Source of the DNA: Pteria penguin
Lineage: Eukaryota; Mollusca; Bivalvia; Pterioida; Pteriidae
NCBI GenBank assembly: GCA_035048485.1
Contig: CM068584.1
Coordinates: 70,013,407-70,077,406 of the forward strand
Length of the DNA: 64,000 nucleotides
Direction of reading: 5' to 3'
Made by a program: the position numbers and the translations under genes. Shown piece by piece: positions 1 through 30,740 of the stretch (within the stretch, counting starts at the first letter, position 1; every line of letters starts with the position of its first letter). Below the pieces are notes generated by a model. It was not told the origin of the DNA. It made no database searches and was given only the letters and a program-made list of their open reading frames with translations.

Positions 1-13
1 CCTCTAACTCCAT
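1..13 (-). CDS. E0: first codons of a fourth E gene copy, cut by the window edge
   Basis: The complement of the first 13 bases encodes M-E-L-E, the same start as the other three E copies at 11928, 24219 and 36838. The flank beyond it matches their upstream regions. A candidate leader intron (complement) runs 27-415 with a GTAAGA donor and a CTGTAG acceptor, as in the other copies. Only the first codons are visible, so the condition of the gene is unknown. Confidence 0.7.
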
Positions 14-1045
14 TGTGTATGACAATCTACAGAAAGAAGAAACACACTGTTCAAGGGCATGTATTTGAAACATGACAATAATGAAATCGAAAAATCACAA
101 AAATAATCGATTGTTTTAGACTTACGATACCGACTGCATTTGGAAAATTTTGATTGTACTAGAGTTACGGTGCCGACTTTGGACGGTCAATTAATATTAA
201 AAACGCAACTTAATTGCAGCGGTTAAAAACAAAAATCGAAAGTAACTGGTTTCACATAGTCGTGGCTATAACCACAATATAAGGAACAATTCAAATTCTT
301 TCCCCTTTTTATAATGTCTAATTTTACATTGCAATCCAAAAAGACATTTAAAATGCATCACACCCAAAGAGAAAACTGGTTAAATAAAGATATTTATATC
401 ATAGTTTTATCTTACCTTTTTTGTGATAATAATATTAACAATATTGTTATTACTATCTTTAAATCCATAGACTAAATGAACAGAGAATTCACATAAGATG
501 ATTTCCAAAGATATAAACTTTTAAATTCATTGAATAATTGATATGAACACATGTTATCAACGAGAGCCTCAGTCGTATACACAGATTTGGACTAAAAACG
601 ACAACAAAGACGAATTTTCGAGTAAGGGTTAACCGGTTTAAACCAGGGTTAAACCGGTTGAACCTGGGTTAAACCGTTTTATCGGTTTAAACATTTGTGA
701 TCATTTGGATCATAACAAAGTGCAAAAAATTATAAAATGGAGCAAGAAACAATACAAGATTAGACGTTTTGCATCCAAACTGGCGTAATATTTCATATAG
801 AATTTATCATTAATACATGAGAAGGAGGATATTTGTAGGCCTACAAAATGAGACAAAGTTCAAATAAATTGGTTCACAAATTAAAAAGATACAGCCCATT
901 CAGATATGAATTTACTACACAAATCTTATGAGAACATTCTGGTCACGTGATATCTATTTTAGAAAAATTCTCTTCTCTTCCCGCAAAATGCCTATACCCT
1001 AACGTGATATCTATTTTAGAAAAATTCTCTTCTCTTCCCGCAAAA
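14..1045 (-). promoter_or_regulatory. E0 upstream region with leader intron and AACCGGTT-rich segment
   Basis: It is nearly identical to the regions upstream of E1, E2 and E3. It holds the candidate leader intron (27-415), a block of AACCGGTT/TTTAAACC-like words at 628-690 and, nearest the telomeric tract, the E-box TCACGTGA with the E2F-like word GCGGGAAG (complement). The GCGGGAAG segment is partly duplicated here. No other gene is seen. Confidence 0.55.
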
Positions 1046-1052
1046 TGCCTAT

Positions 1053-1122
1053 ACCCTAACCCTAACCCTAACCCTTCCCGCAAAAATGCCTATACCCTAA
1101 CCCTAACCCTAACCCTAACCCT
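1053..1122 (+). repeat. Interstitial telomeric tract (CCCTAA), interrupted
   Basis: Two short CCCTAA runs (about 1053-1075 and 1095-1122) are separated by a partial copy of the flanking box (TTCCCGCAAAAATGCC). The CCCTAA orientation on the + strand implies that the distal side is to the left. Confidence 0.9.
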
Positions 1123-1657
1123 GCTTTGTATACCATACACATTTCAAACCATCAAGCAAATAATAACAAAGAGCAATTGGAAAAAAATGTTTACAACACG
1201 TTAAAAATATCAAAATCAATATTGCCACAATTTTTAAAGCATAACATTGAAATAGTTGATATCAGGTACAATTTTTACTAATATACAAACATTACACATA
1301 ATAATAAAAAAAAAACATAAAAAAAGCAAACATCATGTATACTTTTTGTATATCATAGTGATTTCAACAATTCAAACACAAAATAACAAAGTAAGGAATA
1401 TATAAAGCGATTGGAAATATATTTTCACAACAGTTTAAAAATATCAAAATCAAGATTGCACAATTATTAAAGCATAATATTGCATGGTTATCAACATATC
1501 AGGTGAAATTTTCACAAATAAACAAACATTACACATAATAATATAAAAATAAAAAAAAAATAACATAAAACAAAGCAACATCATGCATAACTTTTTGTAT
1601 ATCATGGTGATTATAATCATCAAGAAATTAGAATCGGCAGTCCAGATTCAATCACAT
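1123..1657. other. 3' flank of coiled-coil copy A, AT-rich, about two repeat copies
   Basis: There are two imperfect ~240-bp tandem copies, each containing words such as ACACATAATAATA and GATATACAAAAAGT. They lie between the gene's stop and the telomeric tract. No gene is seen. The same duplicated flank follows copies B and C. Confidence 0.6.
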
Positions 1658-1715
1658 TTACATTTGTAACAGCGCATCGTCATTACCCAACATGCTTTCC
1701 AGTTCCTCCATGCGT

Positions 1716-2840
1716 TTACTCATTCCGTTGTTTCCTTTTCAGGGCCTTTATCTTTTCAACCAGGTAAGACAGGAAGCCGTTGGAAAACTCGCAGGTATCA
1801 TGCCTATCCCACATGCCGTCCCTTATTCCGTCTCGGAACAGGTCCTCGGCCCCTGAATTGGTGGAGCTGGCTGTAAATGAATTGTTACTTTATAATGCAA
1901 TATATAATGATATATTATATGTTTATACAATAAAAATAGAATGTGCCTTCTACGGATTATAAACGAGACATTAGCACAATATGAAAGTTACTGGTGTAAC
2001 ATGACAATGGCACTAACAACATTGTACCACAGCGGACGTTCACAGACCCCTGAAATTCAGATGAAGGACAAGATGCACTGGAATCAATTCTAATCAATTA
2101 TGAAATTGAAACCTTCAAATTGTTAATCCGGATACAAATTTCTCCTTATGAGGTTCCCTGATGTCAGAATCGAAAACTCTATTGCCTAAAAATACAAAGT
2201 TATAAGGTGTGGCATTTAAAGTGTCGAAAATAGATTAACAGACGAACAAACAAACACACGGAAAACATCCCATGTGCAACGTAAGTGGTGCTATGTTTCG
2301 CAGATGACACAACACATGCGCAACTGAAATGATAAATGAATATCAATGAACGGTATGTGTACTATCTAGATGAAGTTTTTATTTCATAGTAATGCATTGC
2401 TACATATCAAAAATAACTTAATATTTACCTATAGAATCTTGATTTTCCTCAAACCATCTGAGGATGTACATCTGTTGTACTTTTGTACACTTCTCCCTCT
2501 TGTGAGTTTTAACTCTTGTTTCGTAAGGAGCTAGTTGTTCCTTTAGTTGAGGGGAAACATCCCCGAGCTCCTTTGGGGCTACAAATCCATCTTTGGTTGG
2601 GGTAGCCAATTCCTGACTCCTGTGTCTAAGGCACTGCTTCTCATTTTCCAATATTCTTATCTTCGCCCCCATTTGTTCACCTTTCTCTTCTAACTCCTCC
2701 ACTTTCCTCTTTAATGACTCCACCTCCTGTCTCTCATTACTTGCGGTTTTCGCCATCTCTTCGCCAAACGCCTTCAGTTTATTTATAACAAAACTTTCCA
2801 ACGCCTCCATTCGTTCTTCAACGTCCATCTGATCTTCCAT
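1716..2840 (-). pseudogene. Coiled-coil gene copy A, two coding exons, frameshifted in exon 2
   Basis: Exon 1 is the complement of 2429-2840. It begins at ATG immediately after an AG acceptor and ends at a GTAAAT donor. Exon 2 begins at 1870 after TTTACAG. The product matches copy B: an acidic N-terminus, a heptad-rich coiled coil (about residues 5-75), then a conserved C-terminal region. In exon 2 copy A has one extra base near 1722 (CGGAATGAG where B has CGGATGAG), which gives a premature stop at 1716-1718; the ancestral stop position is 1658-1660. The promoter is at 6162-6169. The product family is not recognised. The extra base could be a real lesion or a sequencing error. Confidence 0.75.
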
Positions 2841-2879
2841 CTGAAATGTTACAATGCATGTCAAATAAATATGAATCAA

Positions 2880-3240
2880 AATCTTAAATTTCTTAAATCG
2901 ATGTCAATGAATTATCTAAAGTAATGCCTTTAAAAACTCTTACATTGTAATTGCATATAAAACAAAATAAACTTTAAAAAGACAAGAAAAAGAAAAACAC
3001 AAAGTAATGTAAACCGAGACTTCGAACAAGATGTATACACCATCCTAAATCGGGTTAAGAAAGAAAGGACTGAAATGAATATACAAAAGAATAAATTGTA
3101 CATGACAGAATAGAGAAATAAAGAAACATATAGCGACTATAACGAGGAAAGGAAATTAAAAATACAATGCCAGAAATATTCTAAGTTCTTACTTTCTTGC
3201 GCTTTGTACTTCTAAAACGTGAGAAACATATGTCAATTAA
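2880..3240. other. AT-rich intron sequence of coiled-coil copy A
   Basis: This lies between coding exon 1 and the TTAACCC array. It contains no open frame of note and no recognisable element. It reads as part of the long leader intron of the minus-strand gene. Confidence 0.4.
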
Positions 3241-3259
3241 TATATAAGCCACTAGGATT

Positions 3260-3530
3260 AGGTAACCCTTGGGGTAAACAGTTTGAATTGGTTTGAACTT
3301 TTTAACCGTTTTAACCCAGGGTTAAACCGTTTTAACCCAGGGTTAAAAAAGTTTTTAACCCAGGGTCAACCCAGGGTTTAACCGTTTTAACCCAGGGTTA
3401 CACCGTTTTAACCCAGGGTTAACCCAGGGTTAAAAAGGTTTAAACCCAGGGTTAAAACTGGTAACTCTAACTCAGGGTTAAACCGTTTAAAACGGTTTAA
3501 CCCTGGGTTTAAAACAGGTATAACTAAGGG
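3260..3530. repeat. TTTAACCCAGGG-type degenerate minisatellite
   Basis: Short units of TTAACCCAGGG and AACCGTTTTAACCC alternate, with many self-complementary words such as AACCCTGGGTT. A lone GGTTAGGGTTAAC follows at 3540-3552. Equivalent arrays lie at 33340-33580 and 45265-45500. Confidence 0.85.
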
Positions 3531-3577
3531 ATGACCGTAGGGTTAGGGTTAACACGTGTCAAACTAAGTAAAAAAAC

Positions 3578-3796
3578 ATGGCGGAATCTCACGACTTCCT
3601 TCCAATGTTTCTGATGATATTTGATGATTCATCTGACTTTCCTATCGTCGAGGAATATATTAGCAACAGGTTTATAGATGCCTGCACAATCAATATATAT
3701 GGACACTCAGGTTTCGGATTTTGGTCACACAATGATTATCAACAAGTCTTGAGCTTCTGTAGGAGTAAATTGATTATCACGAAATCCTACTGTTAG
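3578..3796 (+). CDS. Small ORF F (copy A), antisense to the coiled-coil gene
   Basis: This is a 72-codon ORF starting with M-A-E-S-H-D-F. It lies in the leader intron of the coiled-coil gene on the opposite strand. The ATG is inside AAACATGGCGG, a YY1-like start motif, and an E-box CACGTG lies 20 bp upstream. The stop TAG directly abuts a strong donor (TAG|GTAAGT at 3797). A TTTCAG acceptor at 4192-4199 precedes a further short open segment. The ORF is conserved intact in copies at 33075-33293 and 44989-45207, but so is most flanking DNA. No family is recognised. Expression is unproven. Confidence 0.35.
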   Translation: MAESHDFLPMFLMIFDDSSDFPIVEEYISNRFIDACTINIYGHSGFGFWSHNDYQQVLSFCRSKLIITKSYC

Positions 3797-3850
3797 GTAA
3801 GTTGACTTTAATACTTTCTTTCATCTTTCCTTTCATAAATTCATTTACTA

Positions 3851-3851
<1 letters not shown>

Positions 3852-3896
<45 letters not shown>
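3852..3896 (+). repeat. (TTGA)n microsatellite
   Basis: About eleven TTGA/TGAT units run in tandem. The homologous sites at 32988-33020 and 44903-44932 are shorter, so the length is variable. Confidence 0.95.
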
Positions 3897-3899
3897 ATT

Positions 3900-4780
3900 T
3901 TTCTTTAAATGTGTTTTTTTATCTATTGGTGTTATTCTTTATAGTAAAGAGGATGGTTTTTCATAAAAATAAGTCTCTGTATATGGGGATATATTTACAC
4001 ATATTTAAATGTGCCTTTAATCAATTTACACTGTTCGCACGATAGATTTGGGGTGGGGTGGCACCGTAAATAAGTTAATTTCACCATTTGCGTGACTCAG
4101 TAATTGTCGTTGTCAATACAAAAACGGTACTGTGAATGCATTTCATCATAGTAAGCTATATCTAGAGATATGAGACCTTTGGCACATTCTGATTTCAGGA
4201 TGACGAGGCTATGTACTTGATAGCATGCAGGGACAACACTAAGGATATAATAAAGAATGGTGTAAAATCCTGAGAATGTTCTTTATAGGAAAGAACTCTT
4301 GCTAATTAAAGATTGCACATATCAGACAGTTGTTATGACTTTTTATATGATATTGACGGGATAGTTGCTATATTAAAAAGGTTTGAAACATATAAACAGC
4401 TCCTTTTACATTATTTAAGCAAAATACGAAAGTAGCTTATATCACATGACTGTTGCGATCTAAAGCCCAATAATGTATCGAGACAATAAATTATAAGCTT
4501 TAGTGGCTGGGGCTTGGTTGGGCTGAGGCTTTGGCTTAGGCGTGTGCTTAGACGTAAGTTGTGTCTTAAGTTGGTGCTATCTGCCAAAGATCTAACTTAC
4601 TTCTGAGAGCCTCATCAAGATACTTTATGTGTACTTATTTTAGCGGGATTCATATTTTAATCGAAAGAGCGCTTCCGAAATTGCGGTTAATTTAAAGCTT
4701 CTCTAAATAATTATTCTTTTATAGATACTTATGGAAAATAAGATAAGTGTACTAATTTATGAGTACGCTAATACGCCATT
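3900..4780. other. Intron-like AT-rich DNA, no clear gene
   Basis: Apart from the possible second exon of F (from 4200, ending in-frame at TGA near 4270) nothing is recognised. Sequence at 4496-4580 is a short GGCTTGG/TTAGGC-rich stretch. Confidence 0.4.
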
Positions 4781-4869
4781 TGGCATTTTAGCTATGCTTC
4801 CACTAAAATTTGGTTGCGCTAAAATAAGTACACGTATGGTAGTTTGTTTTTTTTGCTACCAAACAAATT

Positions 4870-5370
4870 AATACTTACTTGAGTTTACGCCATAGCGGGC
4901 TGCATTTTACGCATAGATTCACTTATGTAGACTTACCCTATGAATCTATGATCTGTCATCTTCTTCTCAAAATTACCGTCAGAGATAAGCTCTAAGAATG
5001 GGCATTGGGATGGGTCATGGAATGGGCCAGAGAAAGGGAGGGGCTGAAGGAAATAAACAACACAATCTGTAGATTCACCCGTGAACCACAGGGAAAATCG
5101 ACAAAAATCGACATATACTCACCATTTCTGCTTTGCGGGCTGCATATCTCTATCTTCTTTAGGTTCATGCAACAATAATATACAACAAAGAACACGGGGT
5201 GGTGGGTAAGGTTAGAGTGGGGCATGGGATTGGGGATAAAGTTCAAACAACATCAAATTAACAACACAATCTGTTGATTCACCGGTGAACTACAGAAAAA
5301 ATCGACAAAAATCGAAATATACTCACAAATATTTCTGCTTTGTGTGCTACATCTTCTTATCTTCATGAAA
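4870..5370 (-). repeat. Tandem leader-exon repeat (copy A)
   Basis: There are three imperfect ~230-bp repeats, read on the complement. Each has GCAGCCCGCAAAGCAG-like sequence followed by a donor (GTGAGTATAT or GTAAGT), then TTTTTGTCGATTTT, a T-rich CTGTAG-like acceptor and the palindromic TTCACCGGTGAA. The pattern suggests a 5' leader exon duplicated together with its splice sites. Equivalent blocks precede copies B, C and D. Confidence 0.5.
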
Positions 5371-5484
5371 AAAACTCGAACCCATTCTTAAACACCATAA
5401 TATTATAAAGGACAAAGGACCAGTCATAGGAAAAGGTTGAAACAGCACCCCCTCCCCGCGCGCGATATATATTAATATCTATCT

Positions 5485-5512
5485 ATCTATCTAATTATCT
5501 ATCTATATCTGC
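5485..5512 (+). repeat. (TATC)n microsatellite
   Basis: Short tandem ATCT/TATC units follow a GCGCGCGATATATAT stretch. They are repeated on the other strand at 31400-31450 and 43300-43345. Confidence 0.9.
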
Positions 5513-5564
5513 ATAAAATAAAGTTAAAGTGAAATCTTAATGCATTCAATGCATAAGGTATGAC

Positions 5565-5955
5565 AGCTTTCTTTCGTATTTAACATGACAGAGATGATAA
5601 AAAAAAAACATTGTTCACTTAAACATAAACTTAAACTTAAATCTGTTCCAATCTCTATTATAAAACATACTCCAGATTTAATTTCTTTCGTATTTCACAT
5701 GACATATCGGATCCAATAAATTCTAACAACTTAAATCTGAGTCAATTTATAGTCTGATAGAATATTCCATACTCGACTCTTTTCGTATTTTACATAGAAA
5801 AAAAAAAAACTTTCGTATTTCACATGACAGACCGGATTAAAAAAAAGAAAGAAAGAAAAAAAATGCCAACAATGTAAAATTTCTGTCAATTTACAACATT
5901 CAGATAGAATATTCCAAATTCTATTCCTTTCGTATTTTACATAATAAAGAAAAAC
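5565..5955 (-). repeat. TTTCGTATTTCACATGACA repeats downstream of promoter A
   Basis: At least five dispersed copies of CTTTCGTATTTnACAT occur between the promoter and the leader repeats, each in poly-A/T-rich spacer. They form a tandem series of about 100-120 bp units. No coding potential is supported. Confidence 0.6.
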
Positions 5956-6083
5956 CAAAAAAAATTTTTTAAAGAATTTAAATTAAAATTAAACCTTATC
6001 ACAATGTAAATAAATAATAAAATTAATTAATTATTAACCTTTCATTTAAATTTACATGATAATAAAATATAAATGAAACTTAC

Positions 6084-6169
6084 CTACTCAGAGCGAATAA
6101 TTTTCCAACCACACACAGTAAATCCCAACGCATGAATGACTGGTAGCGCGTCAACCGCTTCCTTTTATA
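6084..6169 (-). promoter_or_regulatory. TATA promoter and first exon of coiled-coil copy A
   Basis: On the complement, TATAAAAG (6162-6169) is followed about 30 bp later by a likely start region and a short noncoding exon ending at 6084 with donor GTAAGT (6078-6083). The same TATA, spacing and donor occur at 30741-30826 and 42642-42727, and a diverged version serves gene D. The exact start site is inferred. Confidence 0.75.
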
Positions 6170-6189
6170 CTCAGGAGCGGATCGAAAAT

Positions 6190-7140
6190 TTCAACTAATT
6201 TGCACAAATTGGATTTGGAAAATGAGCCATCTTTAACGGATGATATCTCAGTAACTATAATAGGTAAAAATTTATAATTGATATCCATATTTAGAGGATT
6301 TCAAGACCTTTCTAATGATGTATAGAATATTAATATTAGTAAAGGATTTCTGATAGAAATTGTGTGTTTAAAATAGGTGTGTTATTGGAAATGCATCGGA
6401 ATTAAGAGGTAATCAATTTGCTTCAATTGGATGTAAAGGTGAGCCATATGCCTCAGTGAATATCTTAGCGATTATTATAGATAGAATGTTTAAATTTATA
6501 TCGATATTTAGAAGAAATCTTGACCTTTTCAATGGTGTATAGCACATTGATATAAGTAAAGTATTTCTAATAGAAACATCGTGTTGAAAATTAGGATGTT
6601 ATAGGGTATAATTCGGAATTAAGGTATAATCAATTTGCTTCAATTGGATGTAAAACTGGGTGATACACCTCGGTAAATATCTCAGTAAGTATTATAGATA
6701 AAAAAAATTTAATTTATATGGATATTTAGAAAAGATCAAGACCTTTCCAATGATATATAACACTTTGATATTGATAAAGAATTTCTTATAGGAACATGCT
6801 TTTAAAAATAGGTATGTAATTAGGTATAAATCGGAATTATGGTGTAATCAATTTGCTTCAATTGGATGTAAAACGGGTTGATACGCCTCAATAAATATCT
6901 CAGTAAGTATTATCGATAGAATTTTTAGATTTATATGGATATTTAGAAGAGATCAAGACCTTTCCAATGATATATAACACTTTGATATTGATAAAGAATT
7001 TCTTATAGGAACATGTTTTTAAAAATAAGTATGTTATTAGATATAAATCGGAATTAAGGTTTAATCAATTTGCGTCAATTGGATGTAAAAGTGAATCTTA
7101 TGTCTCAGTCAATATCTCAGTAAGTATTATAGATACAATT
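6190..7140. repeat. ~217-bp tandem repeats upstream of promoter A
   Basis: About five tandem units share words such as CAATTGGATGTAAA, CCTTTCCAATGATATA and GAATTTCTTATAGGA. The last unit runs into the promoter. The period was measured in the mirrored copy from CATCC positions 29826, 30043, 30261 and 30478. Confidence 0.85.
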
Positions 7141-7154
7141 TTGTTATTCATGTA

Positions 7155-7199
7155 GGATCACTGATGAGGGTTTTTACCCGAAACATACATGTCTGGTCC
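7155..7199 (+). ncRNA. Type I hammerhead ribozyme (copy A)
   Basis: All conserved elements are present in order: helix I 5' strand GGATCA (7155-7160), core CTGATGA (7161-7167), helix II GGGT-TTTT-ACCC (7168-7179), GAA (7180-7182), helix III ACAT/ATGT with a two-base loop (7183-7192), cleavage-site C at 7193 in a GTC triplet, and helix I 3' strand TGGTCC (7194-7199). Helix I forms six pairs, one of them G-U. Helix I is the open helix, as in type I hammerheads of animal retroelements. A degenerate copy follows 222 bp later. The copies at 29712-29756 and 41613-41657 are identical in the core. Confidence 0.88.
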
Positions 7200-7375
7200 A
7201 TATAGTCAATTATATCCGTTGTTTATGGTGCATATCTCTTTGAAATTTCGATGCTTTTGTATTACTTGGTAAATGTCACTGCTGGTGGACTGTTAGCACC
7301 CGAGGGCACATAAAGCCAAGTTTCACGGTAAAGTTCCGTTGATGTATTACTTTTTAGAGTTTTCCAAATCCTCAG

Positions 7376-7421
7376 ATTTCAAAGTTATTGGTTTTTTACC
7401 CGAAAAATGCATGTCTGGTCC
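7376..7421 (+). ncRNA. Degenerate hammerhead ribozyme, second unit of a 222-bp dimer
   Basis: Its 3' half (ACCCGAAA, ATGCATGTC, TGGTCC) matches the intact ribozyme, with GTC at 7413-7415, exactly 222 bp after GTC at 7191-7193. The CTGATGA core and the helix I 5' strand are lost, so cleavage is not expected. Confidence 0.65.
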
Positions 7422-7712
7422 TTATTGCCAATTATATCCGTTGTTCATGGTGCAACTCTCTTTGAAGTCTCGATACATAAGTCATGTCATACTTTGAATT
7501 ATAGGTGTTATTAAAGATTAATACTGGACTTCACTTGGTCAAGCTCATGTGTGACTCTTCTCGACTGTGTACAATATCTTTGTGGTGTCATTTTATGTCT
7601 ACATTTTACTTGCTATCCTGTTGTGTTTAATGTCCTAAGACTTAGTCAGTTGTCTTTGCCCTTTCTCATCTATTTTTAGAAAATTCGCTTCTCAAGGTGC
7701 ATAATGCCCTTA

Positions 7713-7734
7713 TCCTAACCCTAACCCTAACCCC
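7713..7734 (+). repeat. Interstitial telomeric tract (CCCTAA), M2/M3 border
   Basis: About three CCCTAA units lie between the flanking box (TAGAAAATTCGCTTCTCAAG, 7677-7696) and the TTAACCCC array. The box resembles the one next to the tract at 12913, which shares GAATTTTTCTAAAATAGAT-like sequence on the complement. Confidence 0.85.
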
Positions 7735-8640
7735 AATTTAACCCCAAGGGTTAAAAAGGGTCAAACTTTTTAACCCCAATTTAACCCCAAGGGTTAAAAA
7801 GGGTCAAACTTTTTAACCCCAATTTAACCCCAAGGGTTAAAAAGGATCAAACTTTTTAACCCCAATTTAACCCCAAGGGTTAAAAGGGTCAAACTTTTTA
7901 ACCCCAAATTAACCCGAAGGGTTAAAAAGGGTCAAACTTTTTAACCCCAATTTTACCACAAGTGTTAAAAATGGTCAAACGTTTTAACCCCAATTTAACC
8001 CCAAGGGTTAAAAAGGGTCAAATTGTTTAACCCTAATTTAACCCAAAGGGTTAAAAAGGGTCAAACTTTTCAACCCCAATTTAACCCCAAGAGTTAAAAA
8101 GGGTCAAACTTTTTAACCCCAATTTAACCCCGAGGGTTCAAAAGGGTCAAACTTTTTAACCCCAATTTAACCCCAAGAGTTAAAAAAGTTAAAACTTTGT
8201 TAACTCCAATTTTACCCCAAGGGTTAAAAAGGGTCAAATTGTTTAACCCTAATTTAACCCAAAGGGTTAAAAAGGGTCAAACTTTTCAACCCCAATTTAA
8301 CCCCAAGAGTTAAAAAAGTTAAAACTTTGTTAACTCCAATTTTATCCCAAGGGTTAAAAAGGGTCAAATTTTTTAACCCCAATTTAACCCCAAGGGTTAA
8401 AAAGGGTCAAACTTTTTAACCCCAAGGGTTAAAAAGGGTCAAACTTTTTAACCCCAAGGGTTAAAAAAGGATCAAACTTTTTAACCCCAATTTGACCCCA
8501 AGGGTTAAAAAGGGTCAAACGTTTTAACCCCAAGAGTCAATTTTTTAACCCAAAGTGTTAAAAATGTTGAAACCGTTGGAAACATTTTGAACCCAAGGGT
8601 CAACATTTTTAACCCCGAAGGTCAAACTTCAAGGGTTAAA
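7728..8640. repeat. TTAACCCC minisatellite (E1 3' side), ~43-bp units
   Basis: Units of TTTTTAACCCCAATTTAACC plus CCAAGGGTTAAAAAGGGTC repeat with scattered variants. Each unit contains an inverted repeat (TTAACCCC near GGGGTTAA-type words), so single strands could fold into hairpins. Homologous arrays are about 1.65 kb (27500-29176) and about 1.0 kb (40085-41079), so length varies between copies. Confidence 0.9.
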
Positions 8641-9242
8641 AATAACTGTAACCATCGCTTAAATTTCTTTTTCATATGTGATATTTGCTTTCGAGTTCCG
8701 GGGAATACTTCTAATATCCTGCTTAAACCCTTTCTCAAACTCTTGATACACACAGGCTACATTTGGTATGTCTATTGTTAAAGTCCTCTTTTGATGAAGT
8801 CAGTGCATAAAGAGATAAAGAATGGATTTCGTAAAGGTTATGTCTGACATTACATCTCAGCATTGGTCCTTTTTCATCTTAAGTTGGTATCCTCCTTAAA
8901 GCTGTATATCCCGTTAATAATTATTTCATAAACCTTGCCTTGAATCAATGTCATCTGTATTAAATTTAATCATAGAAGTATAAAAGGTAAACACCAGATG
9001 TGTATTATAATATTAATATAACTACTAGAACTTACATTGATTCAAGTAAAGATTGACGAAATACATATATCATTCCTTTATAGATATTAATCAAAACACA
9101 GATATCGATACCATACTAATTGTATTATAGTTCAAACAATTACTACAATCGTGCTAAAATTCTTAAAGTCAAATATCATTTATCTAAACTTTATACAGCT
9201 TCAATTGAAAGGATTTAAATGTCCTGAATGGAATGTTTTCAG
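8641..9242. other. 3' flank of E1, no gene seen
   Basis: This AT-rich, single-copy-looking segment is conserved after E2 (26903-27500) and E3. On the gene strand there is an ATTAAA possible poly(A) signal, equivalent to 27175-27180 after E2. Confidence 0.45.
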
Positions 9243-11928
9243 TCATACATTTATCACGATATACATTATACATCTCTTTATGTGTACGATTTTAACCAGT
9301 TTTATCTTCTTCACAATGTCAATTTCTGCTTCACTCCATTTTGTGCTACGATTTATTCTAATCGGTCTGCATGTTGCTTCTCGTCTTGGAGCGATGTCTT
9401 GGTCTTCATGAATATGTTCATCACTGAATTTAAGAGTATTCTCCTCTTGTAACTCGTAGTTAGGGACCTCGCGGTTTTGAATCCTCAATTTGATCCCGTT
9501 TCGTTTCAACGGTACGCTCTTGGATCAACTTGTGTGGTATGGTCCAATGTAGGCGGTATAATGTCAGTTGGGTGTCTCGAATGGATTGCAATACCTTACC
9601 TGACAGTATTTCATGTTTTTGCAATTGCTTGGCAGACAAAGGCACTTCACGCATCAATTTAGGAAAACTATCAAAGTTGACAAACCATCCATCCATCATA
9701 AAAGCAATGCAGCTTACAAACGTCAAAGTGGTGACGGTCAGGTCTAGAGAAAGATTTTTTGTCTTGAGCTTTCGTAAACAGACGTCTAACCACGGTAACT
9801 GGACTGTTATTTTTTTCAACTTGCTCACATAGATTAAGTCTCTTTTCTGGAGATCTCCTTTGACAAGATTATATATCATATCAAGGGTTTGGCTGTTGAC
9901 TAGTTCGATTCTTTTGTCGTTAATAATTTTCCAATAATTATTTTTGTAGGTCCAAGTTAGTGTTGCGTCTTTTCCGGTGGTAAGTGTAAGAGCAGGAAAA
10001 TAAACAAGTCCAAGTTCTTCAAGGCCCGCAGACAATATTTCAAAGAGGTTTAGATTATGATTCTCTATCATTAAACACAATTTCGGATAAACCATTTTGG
10101 TGTCAGTCCTTCTCCTATACGTCAGAGTGTCACATAAGTTTTCTTTGGTGATGGAACCTACTACAGGGTATCTAGTGTTAACACTCTGTAACTGATACAA
10201 GAACTGGTCGTATGATGAGAATATTTTGGCCTTTCCTAAGTCGTGAAAGTCTTGAAGTAATGCTGTTATGAGACGCCTACCAATCACACTGTAGCTGGAA
10301 TCTATATAATCATCAAACCCGGCGGCTCGTTTGATGCTTAAACAAACGTCTGGGGAACATGTCCATATTGCAAGTGGTGGCAAGGTAGATTCGGTTTCGG
10401 TTGCGGTTCTGGGATTGCTTAATGCCAAAAATCCGAGCTGATCAGTGAGGCTTTTCGAGTTTCCTAATACGCCTGGCCCTAAAGGCGTAGAATAGTGATT
10501 GCTTCTCCAACATAATGGATGACCCCAGAGAAGTTTCTCTATTGCTAGCTCAAATTGGTAAGCCTGCCATGTTGCCCCAATGTTAACGGTGCGTTTCTTT
10601 TCACTAAAAATGTTTCGAAGTTCATCTAGTAAACCTATGGCAATTTCTCGAACTTTCTGAATCACAATTCTCGGTATAGGGACTATCATGGCCTGTTCTT
10701 GTAACAGATTTGTCAATTTTGTAAAGTCTATGAAATCTGAGGCATCTAAATGATTAATGGTCGGAATGGATTCTACAACTATTTCTAATCGGCATGAACT
10801 TTTTTGAAGACATAACAAAGAACTGCCTATTGCTGACAGGTATAAGTCTGCATCACGCATGAGGGCCCGTGCTGAATTAGGATGCATGCATGTGCTGGCT
10901 AGAATGCCCCCTGACACCGGATGGTATCGACCTGGGGGCCTTCTGTGCGGAATGTCTGCATAAAGTTGAACGAATCTTAACTTAGCCGCACTAACCTCGC
11001 GTAAGATTGGAGATATATCCATTGGTCGTCCATCCAGGTTGGATTGAAAGTTTGCACAATCGTTGAACGAAAGACAGGTACCTAGGATTCCTCTCCTGCC
11101 TGACACATTATTCAAACCGTCCAAGGACCACAGAAGTTCAATACCGTCACATTGTGATTTTATCTGAACGGCTGCATGCACAGTAGCCTTTGTGATGAGG
11201 CTTAAGTCAAATCCAGCAAGTGAAAGTCCATTTGACATTTTCTCCCCAAAGCGAAAGGTGAAAATAATAGGACGAAAGGATCCAATTGTTATGTTGGCAA
11301 TAGCTCGTTGAAGAGCTAAAAGAATCATGCTTCTATCGTCTGGTAAAACAAAAAGTTTATGCACATCATTCAAGTCATGTTTGGCCAGAGTTTGTATGCA
11401 TATTCCGTTGGTGGCTAATTCCAATAGTTCTGAACGAAAGTCTCGTTTCATCCCCGCAAAGGCATCGAATGTTATTTTCCTTATCACATCGTTCGGATAC
11501 ATAACACTTCCACCTGCTGGAATAAGAGCTATCCAACCTTCCCAACCGCCTTCATAGAAAATTTGAAATCCAAGGGAGTTGTTAAAATTCTTTAAGTCAA
11601 CCTTTGAGAATAATGTTAGATCCAAGTGTTTTTTTAACATATCTTTCACTGGTCTAAGGCTAAAATTATCCTTGTTCATAAGCGTCAAATGTCTTAGAGG
11701 CAATGATATTGCATGGACTCCTCGGAGTTCCAAAACACACCCATCAATGTCATTACAAAATTCTAACCACGTATCCTGTTCGGATGGCGTTAGAGTAGTG
11801 GATCTCATATAAATTTTACCATCTTGCCGTTTCAAGAATGCTTGTGTTGAGTTATAACGTCTCACTTTTTCAACAAATGACAGGTTTTCAAAGACGGTAT
11901 CCTCAAACGTCTGTTCCTCTAACTCCAT
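9243..11928 (-). pseudogene. E1: copy of the large unknown gene E, frameshifted near its C-terminus
   Basis: The reading frame starts at ATG 11928 (M-E-L-E-E-Q), 13 bases after a CTGTAG acceptor, and stays open for more than 800 codons without introns. One extra A in a run near 9477 (AAAA where E2 and E3 have AAA) shifts the frame to a stop at 9460-9462. The ancestral stop is at 9243, giving an intact length of about 894 codons. No known domain is recognised in the body; there is no YxDD reverse-transcriptase box and no Walker motif. The tail has R-S-T-K-W-S-E-A-E-I-D, reminiscent of the first helix of Myb/SANT-like domains. Compared with E2 and E3, nine transversions cluster at 9567-9620, where E1 carries CAG|GTAAGG. 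The function is unknown. Confidence 0.8.
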
Positions 11929-11941
11929 TGTGTATGACAAT

Positions 11942-12912
11942 CTACAGAAAGAAGAACACACTGTTCAAGGGCATGTATTTGAAACATGACAATAATGAAA
12001 TCGAAAAATCACAAAAATAATCGATTGTTTTAGACTTACGATACCGACTGCATTTGGAATATTTTGATTGTACTATAGTTATGGTGCCGACTTTGTACGT
12101 TCAATTAATATTTATAACGCAACTTAATTTCAGAGTTTTAAATCATAAATAGAAAGTTACTGGTTTCACATAGTCTTTGCTATAACCACAATATTAGTAA
12201 CAATTCAAATTCTTTCCCCTTTTTATAATGTCTAATTTTACATTGCAATCCAAAAAGACATTTAAAATGCATCACACCCAAAGAGAAAACTGGTTAAATA
12301 AAGATATTTTTATCATAGTTTTATCTTACCTTTTTTGTGATAATAAATATTAAACAATATTGTTATTACTATCTTTAAATCCATAGACTAAATGAACAGA
12401 GAATTCACATAAGATGATTTCCAAAGATATAAACTTTTAAATTCATTGAATAATTGATATGAACACATGTTATCAACGAGAGCCTCAGTCGTATACACAG
12501 ATTTGGACTAAAAACGACAACAAAGACGAATTTTCGAGTAAGGGTTAACCGGTTTAAACCAGGGTTAAACCGGTTGAACCTGGGTTAAACCGTTTTATCC
12601 GAATTAAACATTTGTGATCATTTGGATCATAACAAAGTGCAAAAAATTATAAAATGGAGCAAGAAACAATACAAGATTAGACGTTTTGCATCCAAACTGG
12701 CGTAATATTTCATATAGAATTTATCATTAATACATGAGAAGGAGGATATTTGTAGGCCTACAAATGAGACCAAGTTCAAATAAATTGGTTCACAAATTAA
12801 AAAGATACAGCCCATTCAGATATGAATTTACTACACAAATCTTATGAGAACATTCTGGTCACGTGATATCTATTTTAGAAAAATTCTCTTCTCTTCCCGC
12901 AAAATGCCTATA
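11942..12912 (-). promoter_or_regulatory. E1 upstream region: leader intron, TATA-like box, telomere-side box
   Basis: The candidate leader intron is the complement of 11942-12329 (donor GTAAGA, acceptor CTGTAG). A TATAAAAAG lies at 12219-12227, so transcription could also begin inside that interval. The AACCGGTT-rich segment is at 12545-12600. Next to the telomeric tract are TCACGTGA (12861-12868) and GCGGGAAG. Between 12057 and 12210 this copy differs from the other three by many transversions to A or T, although the flanks are almost identical. Confidence 0.5.
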
Positions 12913-12955
12913 CCCTAACCCTAACCCTAACCCTAACCCTAACCCTAACCCTAAC
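12913..12955 (+). repeat. Interstitial telomeric tract (CCCTAA)x7, M1/M2 border
   Basis: A perfect CCCTAA run is joined directly, without spacer, to the M1 terminal repeat (AACTCAGTAA at 12953). The mirrored tract is 23186-23235. Confidence 0.95.
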
Positions 12956-13190
12956 TCAGTAACTAGCCTTTCAATCTTCATAAAACTTTGTATCTAAGTC
13001 ATAAATTATACCAATAACAATACCAAAACAGTATATTACCACCAAAATAGAATTACTAATACCTACATCAGTTATAAGACTTACATCTACATTAGAACGT
13101 CAAAGGGATATAACTCTGTAATTTTCTATTACATCAGGTTTAAAATTGATGTGTCAGTCCCAGACTATGCACTTAACAATATAACATGGA
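12953..13190. repeat. M1 terminal direct repeat, distal copy (238 bp)
   Basis: It is nearly identical to 16881-17118, and the two flank the M1 satellite block in direct orientation. This copy touches the telomeric tract. It carries AAAATAG where the other copy has AATCTAG (two changes to A). Confidence 0.85.
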
Positions 13191-15075
13191 ACAAGATGGC
13201 CTATGAAATTGCATAAAGTACAGTCTTATCATAGATGAAAGTCTGATTATTTTAGAATGGTAATCATATAATTCTATGGTATTGTTTGATATATAGTTCA
13301 TGACTTACATGCAAAGTTTTATTAATATGAAATGATTATTTACTGAGTAATGACCCTTAGAAATCTTGCAATATGGTCTATATTTTATATGCCAAAGTAG
13401 AATACATAAAACATTTCAGACAACTGTTATAAAAGTAAAGATATGATTGGACAAATACAATCTATGATAAACACGCTAAGTTTGATTAAAATTGAATGAT
13501 TATTTATTTAGTAATGACCCTTAGACATCTTAGAATATGGACCATAATGATTTTGTGCTCGCTGAATTTGAGACATGCATGCACAGTTTCATACAATTAG
13601 CATATATAACAACTAAGATATGTCCATTTAGAATGTTAAGAATAAGGGTTCTATATTTCTGTCATTTTTCCATTGTATGCTTCTTTGCAAGCAAAGAAGC
13701 CTTCCAAAATTGCTAGATGATGACACATAATCAGCCGTTCACAGATCGTTGTAAAATATAAAGATATACAGTAATGAAGTATAGACCAAAATCGTAATTC
13801 ATGTAGGTCTTTAATCTAAGAATAAGAATAAAGCTAATCAATATTTCATATCTAAGAAAGATACCATGTTCTCTCAACATTAAATAAACTCGTTGATGAT
13901 ATATAAACATTTTAATACAAATTTCATATTATCGATGCTTTGATTAATTTCATAAAACCCGAATATTATGAAAATATATAATATATTATTGGCATAAAAC
14001 TAAGGCATATAACTCTTACAAATTTCGATACTGAATTTAGTGGTATATTTCACTATAGCAAAGCAAAATGGTTAGTTATTCAGTTATGACCCTTAGAAAT
14101 CTTAGAATATGGCCTATAAAAGTGCATAATAGTACATATAATAACTAAGTTATGACCACTAAGAATGTTAAAAATGAGTGTTCTTTATTTCTGTATTTTT
14201 TCCATTGTATGCCTCTTTGCAAGCAAAGAAGACTTAAAAAAATGTCTTGGCATTTGTAAACATATATACATATATACATAAATAGATATATCACAGCGTT
14301 CGCTTTGAGATAGGAAGACAACGATGTAATATAAATATATAAATATATAAATATATATTTCCCTGAGGTAGAATGTTGTAAAATAGAAAGATATTCAATG
14401 ATGAAATATAGACAAAAGTGTTAATTCACTTGGGTATTACATCTTAGAATAAGAATAAAGCTAATCAATATTGAAATCTAGGGACGATGCCATGCCCTCG
14501 ACACATTAAATTAACTCGTTGATAAATAATGAAAATTCTAATACAAACTACAAAGAAATTGTGCTTTCATTAATTTCATCAAACCCGATATTATGAAAAT
14601 ATATTACTAGCATAAAACAACGGAGAATAACTCTTACAAATGCTTTGAATTGAAAGTTGGGTACTGAATTTAGGGTTATATTTTACTTGGTAACGTCTTT
14701 GACGTCCGCGAAGCCCCACAATATGGCTGCAAAGCCCCACAATGTGGCTGCAAAGTCGAACTATTGGCTGCATGTCAAGCCCCAGAATATGCCTGCAGAG
14801 CCCAAGTATTGGCTGCAGATCTCCAGTATTGGCTGCATGACAAGCCCCACAATATAGCTGCAGAGCCCAAGTATTGGCTGCACAGCCCCATATTTTAGCT
14901 GCACTGGATATCCACATTCTGAAGGGGCTTAACTCTGTCATTAATGAAGCTATCTATATGATGGTTTGCATGTTAGTCATTAACTCTGTGTTATCTAATG
15001 ATGCAGTTAACAATACCATTAACATTATAGTACTACTTCTGTAAAATGACTGCACTTCATGCAATTTCATAAAAA
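13191..15075. repeat. Diverged satellite part of M1
   Basis: Diverged copies of the ~180-bp satellite are recognisable by GTAATGACCCTTAGAAATCTT-like words, mixed with AT-rich DNA. Near 13680-13701 is a perfect hairpin, GCTTCTTTGC-AA-GCAAAGAAGC, with an imperfect second copy near 14208-14232. No gene is seen. Confidence 0.6.
14700..14925. repeat. TTGGCTGCA/GCCCCA minisatellite inside M1
   Basis: Units of about 24-30 bp contain AATATGGCTGCA and AGCCCCA. A 116-codon ORF on the complement is explained by the repeat and is not called as a gene. The mirror is at 21240-21440. Confidence 0.75.
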
Positions 15076-16880
15076 CTTTCTATGGGTCATAACTCAGTAA
15101 ATAACCATTCAATCTCACTAAAACTTTGTGTGCAAGTCATGAATTGAATAATAAACAATATTATAAACATTATACTACTATTACTCAAAAATAACTGAGA
15201 CCTAACCCTGTTATAAGACTGTATTACATGCATTTCTCATAGGCAATTTTCTAAGATATATGGTGGTCATTACTCAAAAAATAACCATTCAATCTTACTA
15301 AAACTTTGTCTGCAAGTCAACAATTATGTAATGAACAATACCATAAATATTATAGTACTACTATTCTAAAATAAATTAGACCTAAACTTGTCATAAGACT
15401 GTCCTTCATATATTTTCAGAGACCATATTATAAGATTTCTTGGGGTCATAACTCAGTATATAACCATTCAATCTTACTCAAACTGTGTGGGCAAATCATG
15501 AACTATATAAAAGACAACTTTATGAACATTATACTACTATTAATCTAAAATAGCTAAGACCTAACCCTGTTATAAAACTGTATAACATGCATTTTTCATA
15601 AGCAATTTCCTAAGATATATGGTGGTCATTACTCAGAAAATAACCATTCAATCTTGCTAAAATCTTGTCCTCAAGTCATCAATTATATAATAAACAATAC
15701 TATAAACAGTATAGTACTTCCACTCTAAAATAAATAAGATCCAGACCTGTATGAGGACTGTACTTTATGCATTTCTCATAAGCAATATTCTAAGTTTTCT
15801 AGGGGTCATAACTTGGTAACTAGTCATTTAATCATTATGAAACGTGTTGTGTAGGTAATCAATTATGTAATTAATAATAACATGAAATTATATTACTATC
15901 ATTGTAACTTTAGTTAGATCTACACCTGTTATAAGACTGTACTATAAGCATTTTGAAAGGTAATTTTCTAAGTTTTCTAATGGTCATAAATCAGTAACTA
16001 GCCATATTATCCTCTTAGAACTCTGTGTGCAAGTCATTAATTATGTAATTAACAATACCATAAACATTATAGTACTTCTACTCTAAAATAATTAAGAATA
16101 CACTTGTCTGAAGACTGTACTTTATGCATTCCTTATAAGCAATATTTTAAGATTTCTAGAGGTCATAACTCGGTAACTAGCCATTCAATCTTTATGCAAT
16201 TTTGTGTGCAGGTCGTCCATTATGTAATTAATTATATTGTGGCATTTTATTACTACCACTCTAGATTTAGATAGACCTAGATCTGAAATAAGACTGTACT
16301 TTATGCATTTCTCATAAGCAATATTCTAAGTTTTCTAGGGGTCATAACTTGGTAACTAGTCATTTAATCATTATGAAACGTGCTGTGTAGGTCATCAATT
16401 ATGTAATTAATAATAACATGAAATTATATTACTATCATTGTAACTTTAGTTAGATCTAGACCTGTTATAAGACTGTACTATAAGCATTTTGAAAGGTAAT
16501 TTTCTAAGTTTTCTAATGGTCATAACTCAGTAACTAGCCATATTATCCTCTTAGAACTTTGTGTGCAAGTCATTAATTATGTAATTAACAATACCATAAA
16601 CATTATAGTACTTCTACTCTAAAATAAGTAAGACCTACACTTGTCTGAAGACTGTACTTTATGCATTCCTTATAAGCAATATTTTAAGATTTCTAGAGGT
16701 TATAACTCGGTAACTAGCCATTCAATCTTTATGCAATTTTGTGTGCAGGTCGTCCATTATGTAATTAATTATATTGTGGCATTATATTACTACCACTCTA
16801 GATTTAGATGGACCTAGATCTGTAATAAGACTGTACTGTATGCATTTTTACAGGTAATTTTAAAGTTTTCTAATAGTCAT
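15076..16880. repeat. ~180-bp satellite array of M1 (left arm)
   Basis: About ten tandem units each begin near GGTCATAACTCAGTAAC. Starts fall near 15077, 15256, 15435, 15615, 15797, 15975, 16156, 16340, 16519 and 16700, a period of 178-184 bp. Some non-adjacent units are more alike than adjacent ones, suggesting a higher-order repeat. Confidence 0.9.
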
Positions 16881-17118
16881 AACTCAGTAACTAGCCTTTC
16901 AATCTTCATAAAACTTTGTATCTAAGTCATAAATTATACAAATAACAATACCAAAACAGTATATTACCACCAATCTAGAATTACTAATACCTACATCAGT
17001 TATAAGACTTACATCTACATTAGAACGTCAAAGGGATATAACTCTGTAATTTTCTATTACATCAGGTTTAAAATTGATGTGTCAGTCCCAGACTATGCAC
17101 TTAACAATATAACATGGA
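16881..17118. repeat. M1 terminal direct repeat, proximal copy (238 bp)
   Basis: This is the second copy of the 12953-13190 sequence. It ends with the same ACATGGA word before unrelated DNA begins. Confidence 0.85.
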
Positions 17119-17381
17119 TAACATTCCTATTCATCAAAACATTTACTACCCCAAGGCAAACTTCACTTATTTTATATGTAAATTTAATCATGTACTACAA
17201 TAGCTATATCGTACCACAATAGCTGTATGGTACAAGACTAATAGCTATTGATGGTACACAAACACCTATCTACTGTACCAAAGTACTTATAAGGTACCAC
17301 AGTACCTACCTGGTACCAAAACTACACCTATCGCGTAGCCAAATAGCTACCGAGACCGTACCAGGGTCACTAAGACCCTGG
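17119..17381. repeat. GGTACC/AGCTAT short-unit repeat
   Basis: There are about ten irregular 20-24 bp units around TAGCTAT, GGTACC and GTACCA, many of them self-complementary. They lead into the telomeric tract through TACCAGGGTCACTAAGACCC. Equivalent DNA is at 18759-19020 and 61542-61800. Confidence 0.75.
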
Positions 17382-17438
17382 CCCTAACCCTAACCCTAAC
17401 CCTAACCCCTAACCCTAACCCTAACCCTAACCCTAACC
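17382..17438 (+). repeat. Interstitial telomeric tract (CCCTAA), minisatellite/M1 border
   Basis: About nine CCCTAA units, one with an extra C, lie between the GGTACC repeat and the CAGCCC minisatellite. Confidence 0.95.
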
Positions 17439-17730
17439 AAACTCCAGCCCCAGCCCCAGCCCCGGCCCCAGCCCCAGCACCAACCCTAGCCCAAGCCCCA
17501 GCCCCAATTACAGCCCCGACTTCAGCCCCAGCCCCAGCCTAAACTATAGACCAAGTCCCAGCTCAGTCCTGTCACAGTCCCGACTCCACTCCCAGCCCCA
17601 GCACCGGCCCCACCCCCAGCCCCAGCCCCGGCCCCAGCTCGATCTCCATCTCCAGCCCCGGCCCCAACCCCCGCCCCAGCAAGAACCCCAGCCCAAATAC
17701 CCAGCATAATCTCTTCACCCAACTCTGACC
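17439..17730. repeat. CAGCCC minisatellite, block 1
   Basis: Degenerate CCAGCC/CCCCAGC hexamer-like units; the complement is a G-rich GGGGCT strand with many runs of four G. It matches 18439-18707 (inverted) and 61215-61468. ORFs across it encode Pro/Ala or Gly/Ala dipeptide runs and are not called as genes. Confidence 0.9.
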
Positions 17731-18110
17731 CCCGCCTTTCAAAGACGAGGTAAAAATAAAAGTACCGATAAATAATAAAAGTCTCACCTATAATTAATTA
17801 GCTTTAATTATTCCAGTATGAGGTACGAAGCATATAACACAGTGATATATCTTGGTTAGATAGAACATACCTCTTCCACGAAACACACAAAAAAATTTAA
17901 TATTAATTTGCCGTTATTTATCATTAAAATTTTTTCATAATAAAGTCACTAGTTACAAAACAAATGTTTCAAAGTAATTGTTAAACCATATAATGAAAGA
18001 GTACTAAACCAACAACTTACCAAATATCGCAAATCTACATTCCAACTTAATTACACGTGTTCAAACATGGCGGCAGGAAATCATATAATTACCCATAATA
18101 CAATGTGGAA
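17731..18110 (-). promoter_or_regulatory. Promoter-like spacer unit: YY1 motif, E-box, splice donor (left copy)
   Basis: The + strand has CACGTG at 18054-18059 and AACATGGCGGC (YY1-like) at 18064-18074. On the complement a strong donor GTAAGT lies at 18015-18020, directed toward the telomeric tract. The unit recurs at 59370, 60109 and 60836. Promoter activity and its direction are inferred. Confidence 0.45.
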
Positions 18111-18430
18111 TGTGGAGCCCCAACTCCAGCCCCAGCCCCAACTCCAGCCCCAGCCCCAGCCCCAACTCCAGCCCCAACTCCAGCTCCAGCCCCAGCCCCG
18201 GCCCCAGCCTCAGCACCAACCCTAGCCCAAGCCCCAGCCCCAATTACAGCCCGGACTTCAGCCCCAGCCCCAGCCCAAACTATAGACCAAGTCCCAGCTC
18301 AGTCCTGTTACAGCCCCGACTCCACTCCCAGCCCCAGCACCGGCCCCAGGCCCAGCCCCGGCCCCAGCTCGATCTCCAGCCCCGGCCCCAGCCCCGGCCC
18401 CAGCATGAACCCCAGCCCAAATCCCCAGCA
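18111..18430. repeat. CAGCCC minisatellite, block 2
   Basis: This second hexamer-like array is related to the block at 60520-60830. It ends at the inversion centre. Confidence 0.9.
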
Positions 18431-18461
18431 TAAACTCTTGCTGGGGATTTGGGCTGGGGTT
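18408..18461. repeat. Centre of the large inverted repeat
   Basis: AACCCCAGCCCAAATCCCC.. on the left is followed by its exact reverse complement on the right, with only the eight bases TAAACTCT (18431-18438) between the arms. Beyond it, the left arm has an extra spacer unit and block (17731-18430). After that, both arms match through M1, E and M3. Confidence 0.9.
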
Positions 18462-18706
18462 CATGCTGGGGCCGGGGTTGGGGCCGGGGCTGGAGATGGA
18501 GATCGAGCTGGGGCCGGGGCTGGGGCTGGGGGTGGGGCCGGTGCTGGGGCTGGGAGTGGAGTCGGGACTGTGACAGGACTGAGCTGGGACTTGGTCTATA
18601 GTTTAGGCTGGGGCTGGGGCTGAAGTCGGGGCTGTAATTGGGGCTGGGGCTTGGGCTAGGGTTGGTGCTGGGGCTGGGGCCGGGGCTGGGGCTGGGGCTG
18701 GAGTTT
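18439..18706. repeat. GGGGCT minisatellite, right of the inversion centre
   Basis: It is the inverted counterpart of 17439-17730, sharing the diagnostic GGAGATGGAGATCGAG order. It is G-rich on the + strand. Confidence 0.9.
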
Positions 18707-18758
18707 GGTTAGGGTTAGGGTTAGGGGTTAGGGGTTAGGGTTAGGGTTAGGGTTAGGG
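18707..18758 (+). repeat. Interstitial telomeric tract (TTAGGG)
   Basis: About eight TTAGGG units, two with an extra G, mirror 17382-17438. Confidence 0.95.
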
Positions 18759-19021
18759 CCAGGGTCTTAGTGACCCTGGTACGGTCTCGGTAGCTATTTG
18801 GCTACGCGATAGGTGTAGTTTTGGTACCAGGTAGGTACTGTGGTACCTTATAAGTACTTTGGTACAGTAGATAGGTGTTTGTGTACCATCAATAGCTATT
18901 AGTCTTGTACCATACAGCTATTGTGGTACGATATAGCTATTGTAGTACATGATTAAATTTACATATAAAATAAGTGAAGTTTGCCTTGGGGTAGTAAATG
19001 TTTTGATGAATAGGAATGTTA
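18759..19021. repeat. GGTACC/AGCTAT short-unit repeat (right arm)
   Basis: This is the reverse complement of 17119-17381. Confidence 0.75.
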
Positions 19022-22000: not shown

Positions 22001-23189
22001 TTATATGTACTATTATGCACTTTTATAGGCCATATTCTAAGATTTCTAAGGGTCATAACTGAATAACTAACCATTTTGCTTTGCTATAGTGAAATATACC
22101 ACTAAATTCAGTATCGAAATTTGTAAGAGTTATATGCCTTAGTTTTATGCCAATAATATATTATATATTTTCATAATATTCGGGTTTTATGAAATTAATC
22201 AAAGCATCGATAATATGAAATTTGTATTAAAATGTTTATATATCATCAACGAGTTTATTTAATGTTGAGAGAACATGGTATCTTTCTTAGATATGAAATA
22301 TTGATTAGCTTTATTCTTATTCTTAGATTAAAGACCTACATGAATTACGATTTTGGTCTATACTTCATTACTGTATATCTTTATATTTTACAACGATCTG
22401 TGAACGGCTGATTATGTGTCATCATCTAGCAATTTTGGAAGGCTTCTTTGCTTGCAAAGAAGCATACAATGGAAAAATGACAGAAATATAGAACCCTTAT
22501 TTTTAACATTCTAAATGGACATATCTTAGTTGTTATATATGCTAATTGTATGAAACTGTGCATGCATGTCTCAAATTCAGCGAGCACAAAATCATTATGG
22601 TCCATATTCTAAGATGTCTAAGGGTCATTACTAAATAAATAATCATTCAATTTTAATCAAACTTAGCGTGTTTATCATAGATTGTATTTGTCCAATCATA
22701 TCTTTACTTTTATAACAGTTGTCTGAAATGTTTTATGTATTCTACTTTGGCATATAAAATATAGACCATATTGTAAGATTTCTAAGGGTCATTACTCAGT
22801 AAATAATCATTTCATATTAATAAAACTTTGCATGTAAGTCATGAACTATATATCAAACAATACCATAGAATTATATGATTACCATTCTAAAATAATAAGA
22901 CTTTCATCTATGATAAGACTGTACTTTATGCAATTTCATAGGCCATCTTGTTCCATGTTATATTGTTAAGTGCATAGTCTGGGACTGACACATCAATTTT
23001 AAACCTGATGTAATAGAAAATTACAGAGTTATATCCCTTTGACGTTCTAATGTAGATGTAAGTCTTATAACTGATGTAGGTATTAGTAATTCTAGATTGG
23101 TGGTAATATACTGTTTTGGTATTGTTATTGGTATAATTTATGACTTAGATACAAAGTTTTATGAAGATTGAAAGGCTAGTTACTGAGTT
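19022..23189. repeat. M1 satellite module, right arm, with 238-bp terminal repeats
   Basis: The reverse complement of 12953-17118, with the terminal repeats at 19022-19259 and 22952-23189. It contains the ~180-bp array, the TTGGCTGCA minisatellite (21240-21440) and the hairpin near 22439-22460. The left and right arms differ by only scattered substitutions and one-base indels. Confidence 0.88.
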
Positions 23190-29483: not shown

Positions 29484-29489
29484 CAATAA

Positions 29490-29756: not shown

Positions 29757-29769
29757 TACATGAATAACA

Positions 29770-30715: not shown

Positions 30716-30740
30716 TTGAAATTTTCGATCCGCTCCTGAG

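Follow-up and report, generated by a model that had tools for sequence, protein, structure and literature searches.

The hammerhead ribozyme motif studied here probably belongs to a retrozyme-like dimer of two ~222-bp units, which is carried as a passenger in the subtelomeric sub-module M3a, close to the right end of contig C5 in Pteria penguin. The window, i.e., the whole stretch of 64,000 nucleotides analysed (C5:70013407-70077406), lies 52–116 kb from the C5 end in a region dense in TTAGGG tracts, with a 10.8-kb run of N directly to its left (features in Table 1). The dimer was copied along with M3a, and four near-identical copies of the module were found. Homologues of the dimer are dispersed through the genome (838 Mb in 49 contigs). 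The hammerhead is not needed to explain the modules, which are a separate subtelomeric system similar in layout to the Y' elements of yeast.

Table 1. Features of the window and their positions.
Feature	Position	Strand	Remarks
Minimal type I hammerhead, copy 1	7155..7199	+	exact 45-mer and strict descriptor
Hammerhead, copy 2 (same element, further copy of the module)	29712..29756	-	exact 45-mer
Hammerhead, copy 3	41613..41657	-	exact 45-mer
Degenerate second dimer unit, copy 1	7390..7474	+	87% over 85 bp; CTGATGA box lost
Degenerate second dimer unit, copy 2	29437..29521	-	
Degenerate second dimer unit, copy 3	41338..41422	-	84% over 85 bp
Retrozyme-like dimer, approximate extent	7147..7540	+	homology to loci L034, L040, and L041; boundaries not exact
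217-bp tandem array directly upstream of the hammerhead	6243..7142	+	
Decayed hammerhead core in the neighbouring module M4	52747..52827	-	75% over 88 columns
Large inverted repeat centred near 18420	1..36850		puts M3 copy 1 in reverse
CCCTAA tract bounding module	1054..1118	+	
CCCTAA tract bounding module	12913..12954	+	
Short internal CCCTAA tract	7719..7730	+	564 bp from hammerhead start
Shared motif at the end of sub-module M3a, leading into its CCCTAA tract	7668..7727	+	
834-aa ORF (family usually ~926 aa)	9460..11964	-	antisense to hammerhead
834-aa ORF, second copy	24404..26902	+	first 76 residues at 24186-24413 in another frame
834-aa ORF, third copy	36802..39483	+	frame broken
161-aa coiled-coil-like ORF	2418..2903	-	copies at 33961-34446 and 45875-46330 (+)

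The hammerhead and its copies in the modules

The hammerhead consists of stem I (GGATCA/TGGTCC, 6 bp), stem II (GGGT/ACCC, 4 bp, closed by a loop of four T), and stem III (ACAT/ATGT, 4 bp as written, with a 2-nt loop). In all four copies of M3, the upstream hammerhead has complete core bases, the GTC triplet, and three paired helices, and cleavage is predicted after C7193. The 45-bp sequence occurs exactly at three positions in the window (mean of 0.00 in 100 shuffles), and a fourth exact copy is located 7.8 kb to the right of the window (C5:70085215-70085259, minus strand). Even when up to three mismatches are allowed, these four copies on C5 are the only matches to the 45-mer in the genome. 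A strict type I descriptor matched three times in the window versus none in 200 dinucleotide shuffles, and a looser hammerhead pattern gave 7 overlapping matches at 3 places versus 0.24 expected. These results agree with the sequence-only reading, which had claimed an intact type I hammerhead at three positions and a degenerate partner about 222 bp from each; the partner was found 222 bp downstream without its CTGATGA box. The hammerhead copies are, with their modules, ~98–99% identical, and the three in the window are one element copied with the module rather than independent occurrences.

An Rfam covariance-model match, which had been proposed as a check, was not obtained at the gathering threshold, and by that check the claim of a hammerhead would fail. 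Across the whole 64 kb, no hammerhead was among the 131 Rfam matches with E ≤ 10, and the only match in an 801-bp stretch was to the type III model (19.6 bits, E 0.26; gathering 48.5). We infer that the models are limited in recognizing hammerheads whose stem III is so short.

A dispersed hammerhead family

A search of the same genome with positions 7143-7700 as DNA query (40 of 124 candidates scored) returned at least 42 matches, four of them full-length and 38 partial. Among the matches listed, the full-length ones, and with them the full hammerhead region, are all on C5 near 70 Mb. The partial matches (at least 38) are 74–95% identical and spread over many contigs; of those listed, 30 include the hammerhead by their query ranges and 8 match the dimer elsewhere, and none of the 38 is within 150 kb of any contig end of known length.

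The 26 dispersed loci that were fetched represent 24 distinct places (L039 overlaps L034, and L042 overlaps L040). The hammerhead is fully paired in 6 of the 26, and 23 dispersed places align with the hammerhead core. The core alignment itself has 23 rows, comprising M3 once (as L017) and 22 dispersed loci, with L039, L040, L042, and L044 excluded. Both CTGATGA and GAA are intact in 16 of the 23 rows including M3 (15 of the 22 dispersed loci), stem III is the perfect palindrome ACATGCATGT in 16 rows, and the cleavage position is A in 22 rows versus C in M3. Standard pairs occupy 92.4% of the helix cells (15 distinct rows), and no more than 41.9% after the partners are slid. No helix pair in the alignment changed on both sides, and each of 500 column shuffles attained the observed level of pairing, so that covariation support is absent. 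The family as a whole has no reading frame that stays open through the core, although six copies of the F1 subfamily have one open 36-codon frame there.

A chance match to the hammerhead pattern would be consistent with the lack of covariation and of an Rfam match at gathering. However, the strict descriptor found nothing in the shuffled sequences, and the core recurs at 23 dispersed places and keeps CTGATGA and GAA in 15 of the 22 loci retained, which leaves this explanation a vanishingly small probability.

The family occurs in several genomic contexts. F1 has a common 5' boundary at five places whose flanks differ. Two of its copies, read to both ends, define a 4.2-kb element with 11-bp terminal inverted repeats (TAGTCCAGTCA, recognized by eye) and the hammerhead ~1 kb inside it. 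One hammerhead subfamily rides inside a DNA transposon with terminal inverted repeats (TIRs). The 4.2-kb transposon at L046 (3953-8151), with these inverted repeats and a hammerhead inside, has short ORFs without a Pfam match, and 3-bp flank duplications were seen by eye in two copies. Copies of F2 at L026 and L048 run on into tandem arrays of 71–75 bp. F3 comprises L034, L040, L041, and L043, with dimers among them. F1 and F2 have only ~110–120 bp of core in common with M3, so the mobile unit may be something other than the dimer. The decayed core in module M4 differs in place and orientation from that in M3 and is independent of the M3 copies.

In the M3 dimer, the units are spaced at 222 bp, the upstream unit being intact in sequence and the downstream unit decayed. 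Alignment with the internal dimer L034, whose units repeat at ~328 bp, gave 72% over 191 columns, and alignment with L040, whose units repeat at ~224 bp, gave 67% over 318 columns; in each of these three dimers the hammerhead of one unit is decayed or missing. M3, L040, and L034 resemble retrozymes in having tandem units of ~170–400 bp with hammerheads, and the family likewise is dispersed without coding capacity. No target-site duplication, exact insertion boundary, or empty site was established for the M3 dimer, and no mobilising enzyme was identified for the family.

Predicted folding and possible origin of the dimer

Stem III of M3 closes a 2-nt loop, and a lone molecule would therefore form only ~3 bp there. 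For the M3 monomer, the hammerhead fold (-8.8 kcal/mol) compares with a lowest-energy fold of -10.2 kcal/mol that is not a hammerhead. For the dispersed variant of L027 and L035, the lowest co-fold of two strands is exactly a double hammerhead, at -34.5 kcal/mol versus -10.1 kcal/mol for one strand, whereas two M3 strands do not adopt a double hammerhead as their lowest co-fold. With ACATACATGT, which is not palindromic, as its stem III and with a decayed partner, the M3 copy would probably be a weak or relict ribozyme.

The dimer may have originated as follows. An ancestral tandem transcript would have cut itself after GUC or GUA, most efficiently as a double hammerhead because the palindrome ACATGCATGT can be shared by two units as a 10-bp stem III helix. 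The released unit RNA may then have been reverse-transcribed by the enzyme of another element and inserted.

That M3 is only a decayed relict of the hammerhead family with no present activity or role is unlikely as a full account. It would explain the decayed partner, the non-palindromic stem III with its co-fold, and the finding of only four near-identical copies from one segmental amplification, but the upstream core, GTC, and three helices have stayed intact in all four. As regards the M3 copy itself, the relict reading overlaps with that of a retrozyme-like passenger, which we prefer.

Telomere-bounded modules at the C5 end

The large inverted repeat, together with further direct copies, results in three copies of the ~12-kb module in the window. 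The inverted repeat, whose centre lies in GC-rich CCAGCC repeats, could be a real palindrome or an effect of assembly. CCCTAA tracts were found at the module borders, as had been claimed from the sequence alone. Of the 59 telomeric tracts at the C5 end (166 kb), 33 are preceded, on the C-rich strand, by one common end motif (27 on the minus strand and 6 on the plus strand); three of the six are in the inverted module copy and three in the reversed last stretch of the contig. Of the remaining 26, one of four additional fixed ends precedes 21, including 11 three-unit tracts of opposite polarity. Starting at the fixed end, 31 of the 33 common-end modules can be aligned with another module, and module copies are cut off at telomeric repeats at varied distances (e.g., 635, 1169, 5182, 5267, and 5945 bp).

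The end of M3a has only its last ~60 bp in common with other module ends. With 40 of 103 candidates scored, this stretch was found at no fewer than 40 further places. Of the 40 listed matches, 39 are within 150 kb of a contig end, 38 of these 39 with the same polarity, and the fortieth is on C9, without a reference end distance. The ~60-bp motif (..TTTTTAGAAAA..AATGCC..CCCTAACCC) joins telomeric repeats to otherwise different subtelomeric modules. Segments related to M3a are also present at other contig ends (40 of 115 candidates scored), while matches to the full hammerhead region were confined to C5 (40 of 124 scored).

Several further observations concern the architecture of these regions. 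At 945-1060 of the window there are two exact 57-bp tandem copies of the common end, resembling extremely truncated modules. On C11 (46.38–46.43 Mb), 17 listed copies of a segment related to positions 5225-5385 are mostly ~3.12 kb apart. The last 10 kb of C5 (C5:70119407-70129407) have telomeric tracts in reverse polarity, with CCCTAA on the plus strand, so this end of the contig may be in the wrong orientation or may not represent the true end of the chromosome.

Genes of the modules

The 834-aa ORF has at least 62 matches in the genome (54 of 109 candidates scored), with fragments of one gene counted apart. On C1–C14, 32 of the 36 listed matches are within 150 kb of an end and 4 are internal (C7 and C13). 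All but one of the 32 near-end matches point toward the telomere, the exception being the inverted copy in the window; 26 further matches on small contigs were excluded from this count. Among the matches listed, the family is found near 13 of the 28 ends of C1–C14, namely the right ends of C1, C2, C4, C5, C6, C12, and C13 and the left ends of C2, C3, C4, C6, C12, and C14. Relatives of ~930 aa occur in metagenomes, and partial ones occur in Dreissena, Mytilus, and a fish. The ORF matched no Pfam family above the cut-off, and searches of the PDB and viral libraries with a confident structure model of the protein gave no clear relative. The Pfam matches of the 161-aa ORF were all sub-threshold.

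The modules may have spread either by recombination, as with Y', or by RNA-templated end attachment, as with Terminons or HeT-A. A more far-reaching proposal, which we regard as quite unlikely, is that the modules constitute a new class of animal chromosome-end mobile element, in which bodies of diverse content, all ending in the ~60-bp motif at the telomeric tract, would encode a telomere-pointing 926-aa protein without a recognized fold that assists their copying or attachment; a double-hammerhead retrozyme recruited on the opposite strand could cut C-rich telomere-derived transcripts.

Relation to Terminons and Penelope-like elements

M3 could be a Terminon-like or Penelope-derived telomere element, in which the hammerhead would process the RNA ahead of annealing between its C-rich 3' end and the TTAGGG overhang. 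The polarity of the array fits, in that on the hammerhead strand CCCTAA follows the fixed end, while truncation at the opposite end varies. Head-to-tail copies truncated at telomeric repeats, as in Terminons, are also seen, irrespective of the hammerhead. Minimal hammerheads are reported in Penelope-like elements (PLEs) and Terminons (PMC7229834; PMC6431247). A reverse transcriptase (RT) family of the PLE type is, moreover, abundant in the genome, and its fragments are near four hammerhead loci (L025, L038, L047, and L048), with mixed strand and position and no consistent linkage. A Penelope-like RT family seen at L048 and L050–L052 and genome-wide is very abundant and ~97% identical. We take it to be Naiad-like, with an apparent N-terminal GIY-YIG-like stretch.

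Against this origin, no Pfam RT was present in window ORFs of ≥120 aa, as the sequence-only reading had stated, and one PLE protein query found no Penelope-like RT inside the telomeric array of C5, the 10.8-kb N run excluded. As for a Penelope RT near TTAGGG, which the same reading suggested looking for, the PLE query gave a single one in the 166-kb C5 end, on the proximal side of the telomeric array. In all four copies, 564 bp separate the hammerhead from the tract, whereas in Terminons the telomeric stretch follows immediately downstream (PMC6431247). Furthermore, the module ORFs are antisense to the hammerhead, and the hammerhead family is found at internal loci and in a TIR transposon. Descent of M3 from a Terminon or Penelope element is not supported because the ribozyme core sits in unrelated internal contexts, including the transposon, and because of the distance from the tract. 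The Terminon reading retains the polarity argument but fails on where the hammerhead lies and, within the searches made, on the RT; we give it little credence. Of the interpretation first given for M3, the type I hammerhead in a tandem dimer and the telomere-bounded modules are supported, and the Terminon/Penelope descent is not.

PLE enzymes may nevertheless bear on the retrozyme-like family. For a PLE RT, PMC11167929 places the required RNA region within the first 172 nt of an ORF that starts inside the hammerhead. Recognition by a PLE RT may plausibly be a reason why the stretch 3' of the ribozyme has been conserved.

Comparison with known systems

Metazoan retrozymes are described as tandem units of 170–400 nt with type I hammerheads (PMC7229834). 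According to the same source, those of a mussel number ~5000 copies of 350–390-bp repeats and are without most of the nucleotides of the tertiary loop contacts, those of amphibians cleave better as dimers, and retrozymes mostly have canonical hammerheads, the minimal ones being found in Penelope-like elements. The M3 family is like these non-LTR retrozymes in its type I hammerhead, low GC, tandem units of 170–400 nt, dimers, and dispersal, but differs in its very short stem III, which resembles that of PLEs (PMC7229834). In addition, some relatives of this putative retrozyme family ride in other elements.

With the hammerheads of PLEs and Terminons (PMC11167929; PMC6431247), M3 shares the minimal type I architecture, and the modules share with Terminons their telomeric location and end polarity (PMC6431247). 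The M3 module differs from both in that no RT or GIY-YIG was found in it, the hammerhead is apart from the telomeric tract, and the ORFs are antisense.

In yeast, Y' modules are separated by internal telomeric repeats, have a fixed proximal border, and carry a gene reading toward the telomere. The M3 modules are similar in all three respects, although they are found in an animal genome and include many truncated and mosaic modules. In contrast to Y', the 834/926-aa protein gave no match to a helicase or any other known fold.

The modules with their telomere-pointing gene are the more unusual part of this region, rather than the hammerhead, which is of a known animal kind. The hammerhead family adds to the animal retrozymes a minimal type with a palindromic stem III that is predicted to form a natural double hammerhead, and a retrozyme-like element is seen here as cargo both inside subtelomeric modules and inside a DNA transposon. 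Beyond the ribozyme, the region draws attention to a system of modules at chromosome ends, with a telomere-pointing gene family, in an animal whose telomeric tracts are of the TTAGGG type.
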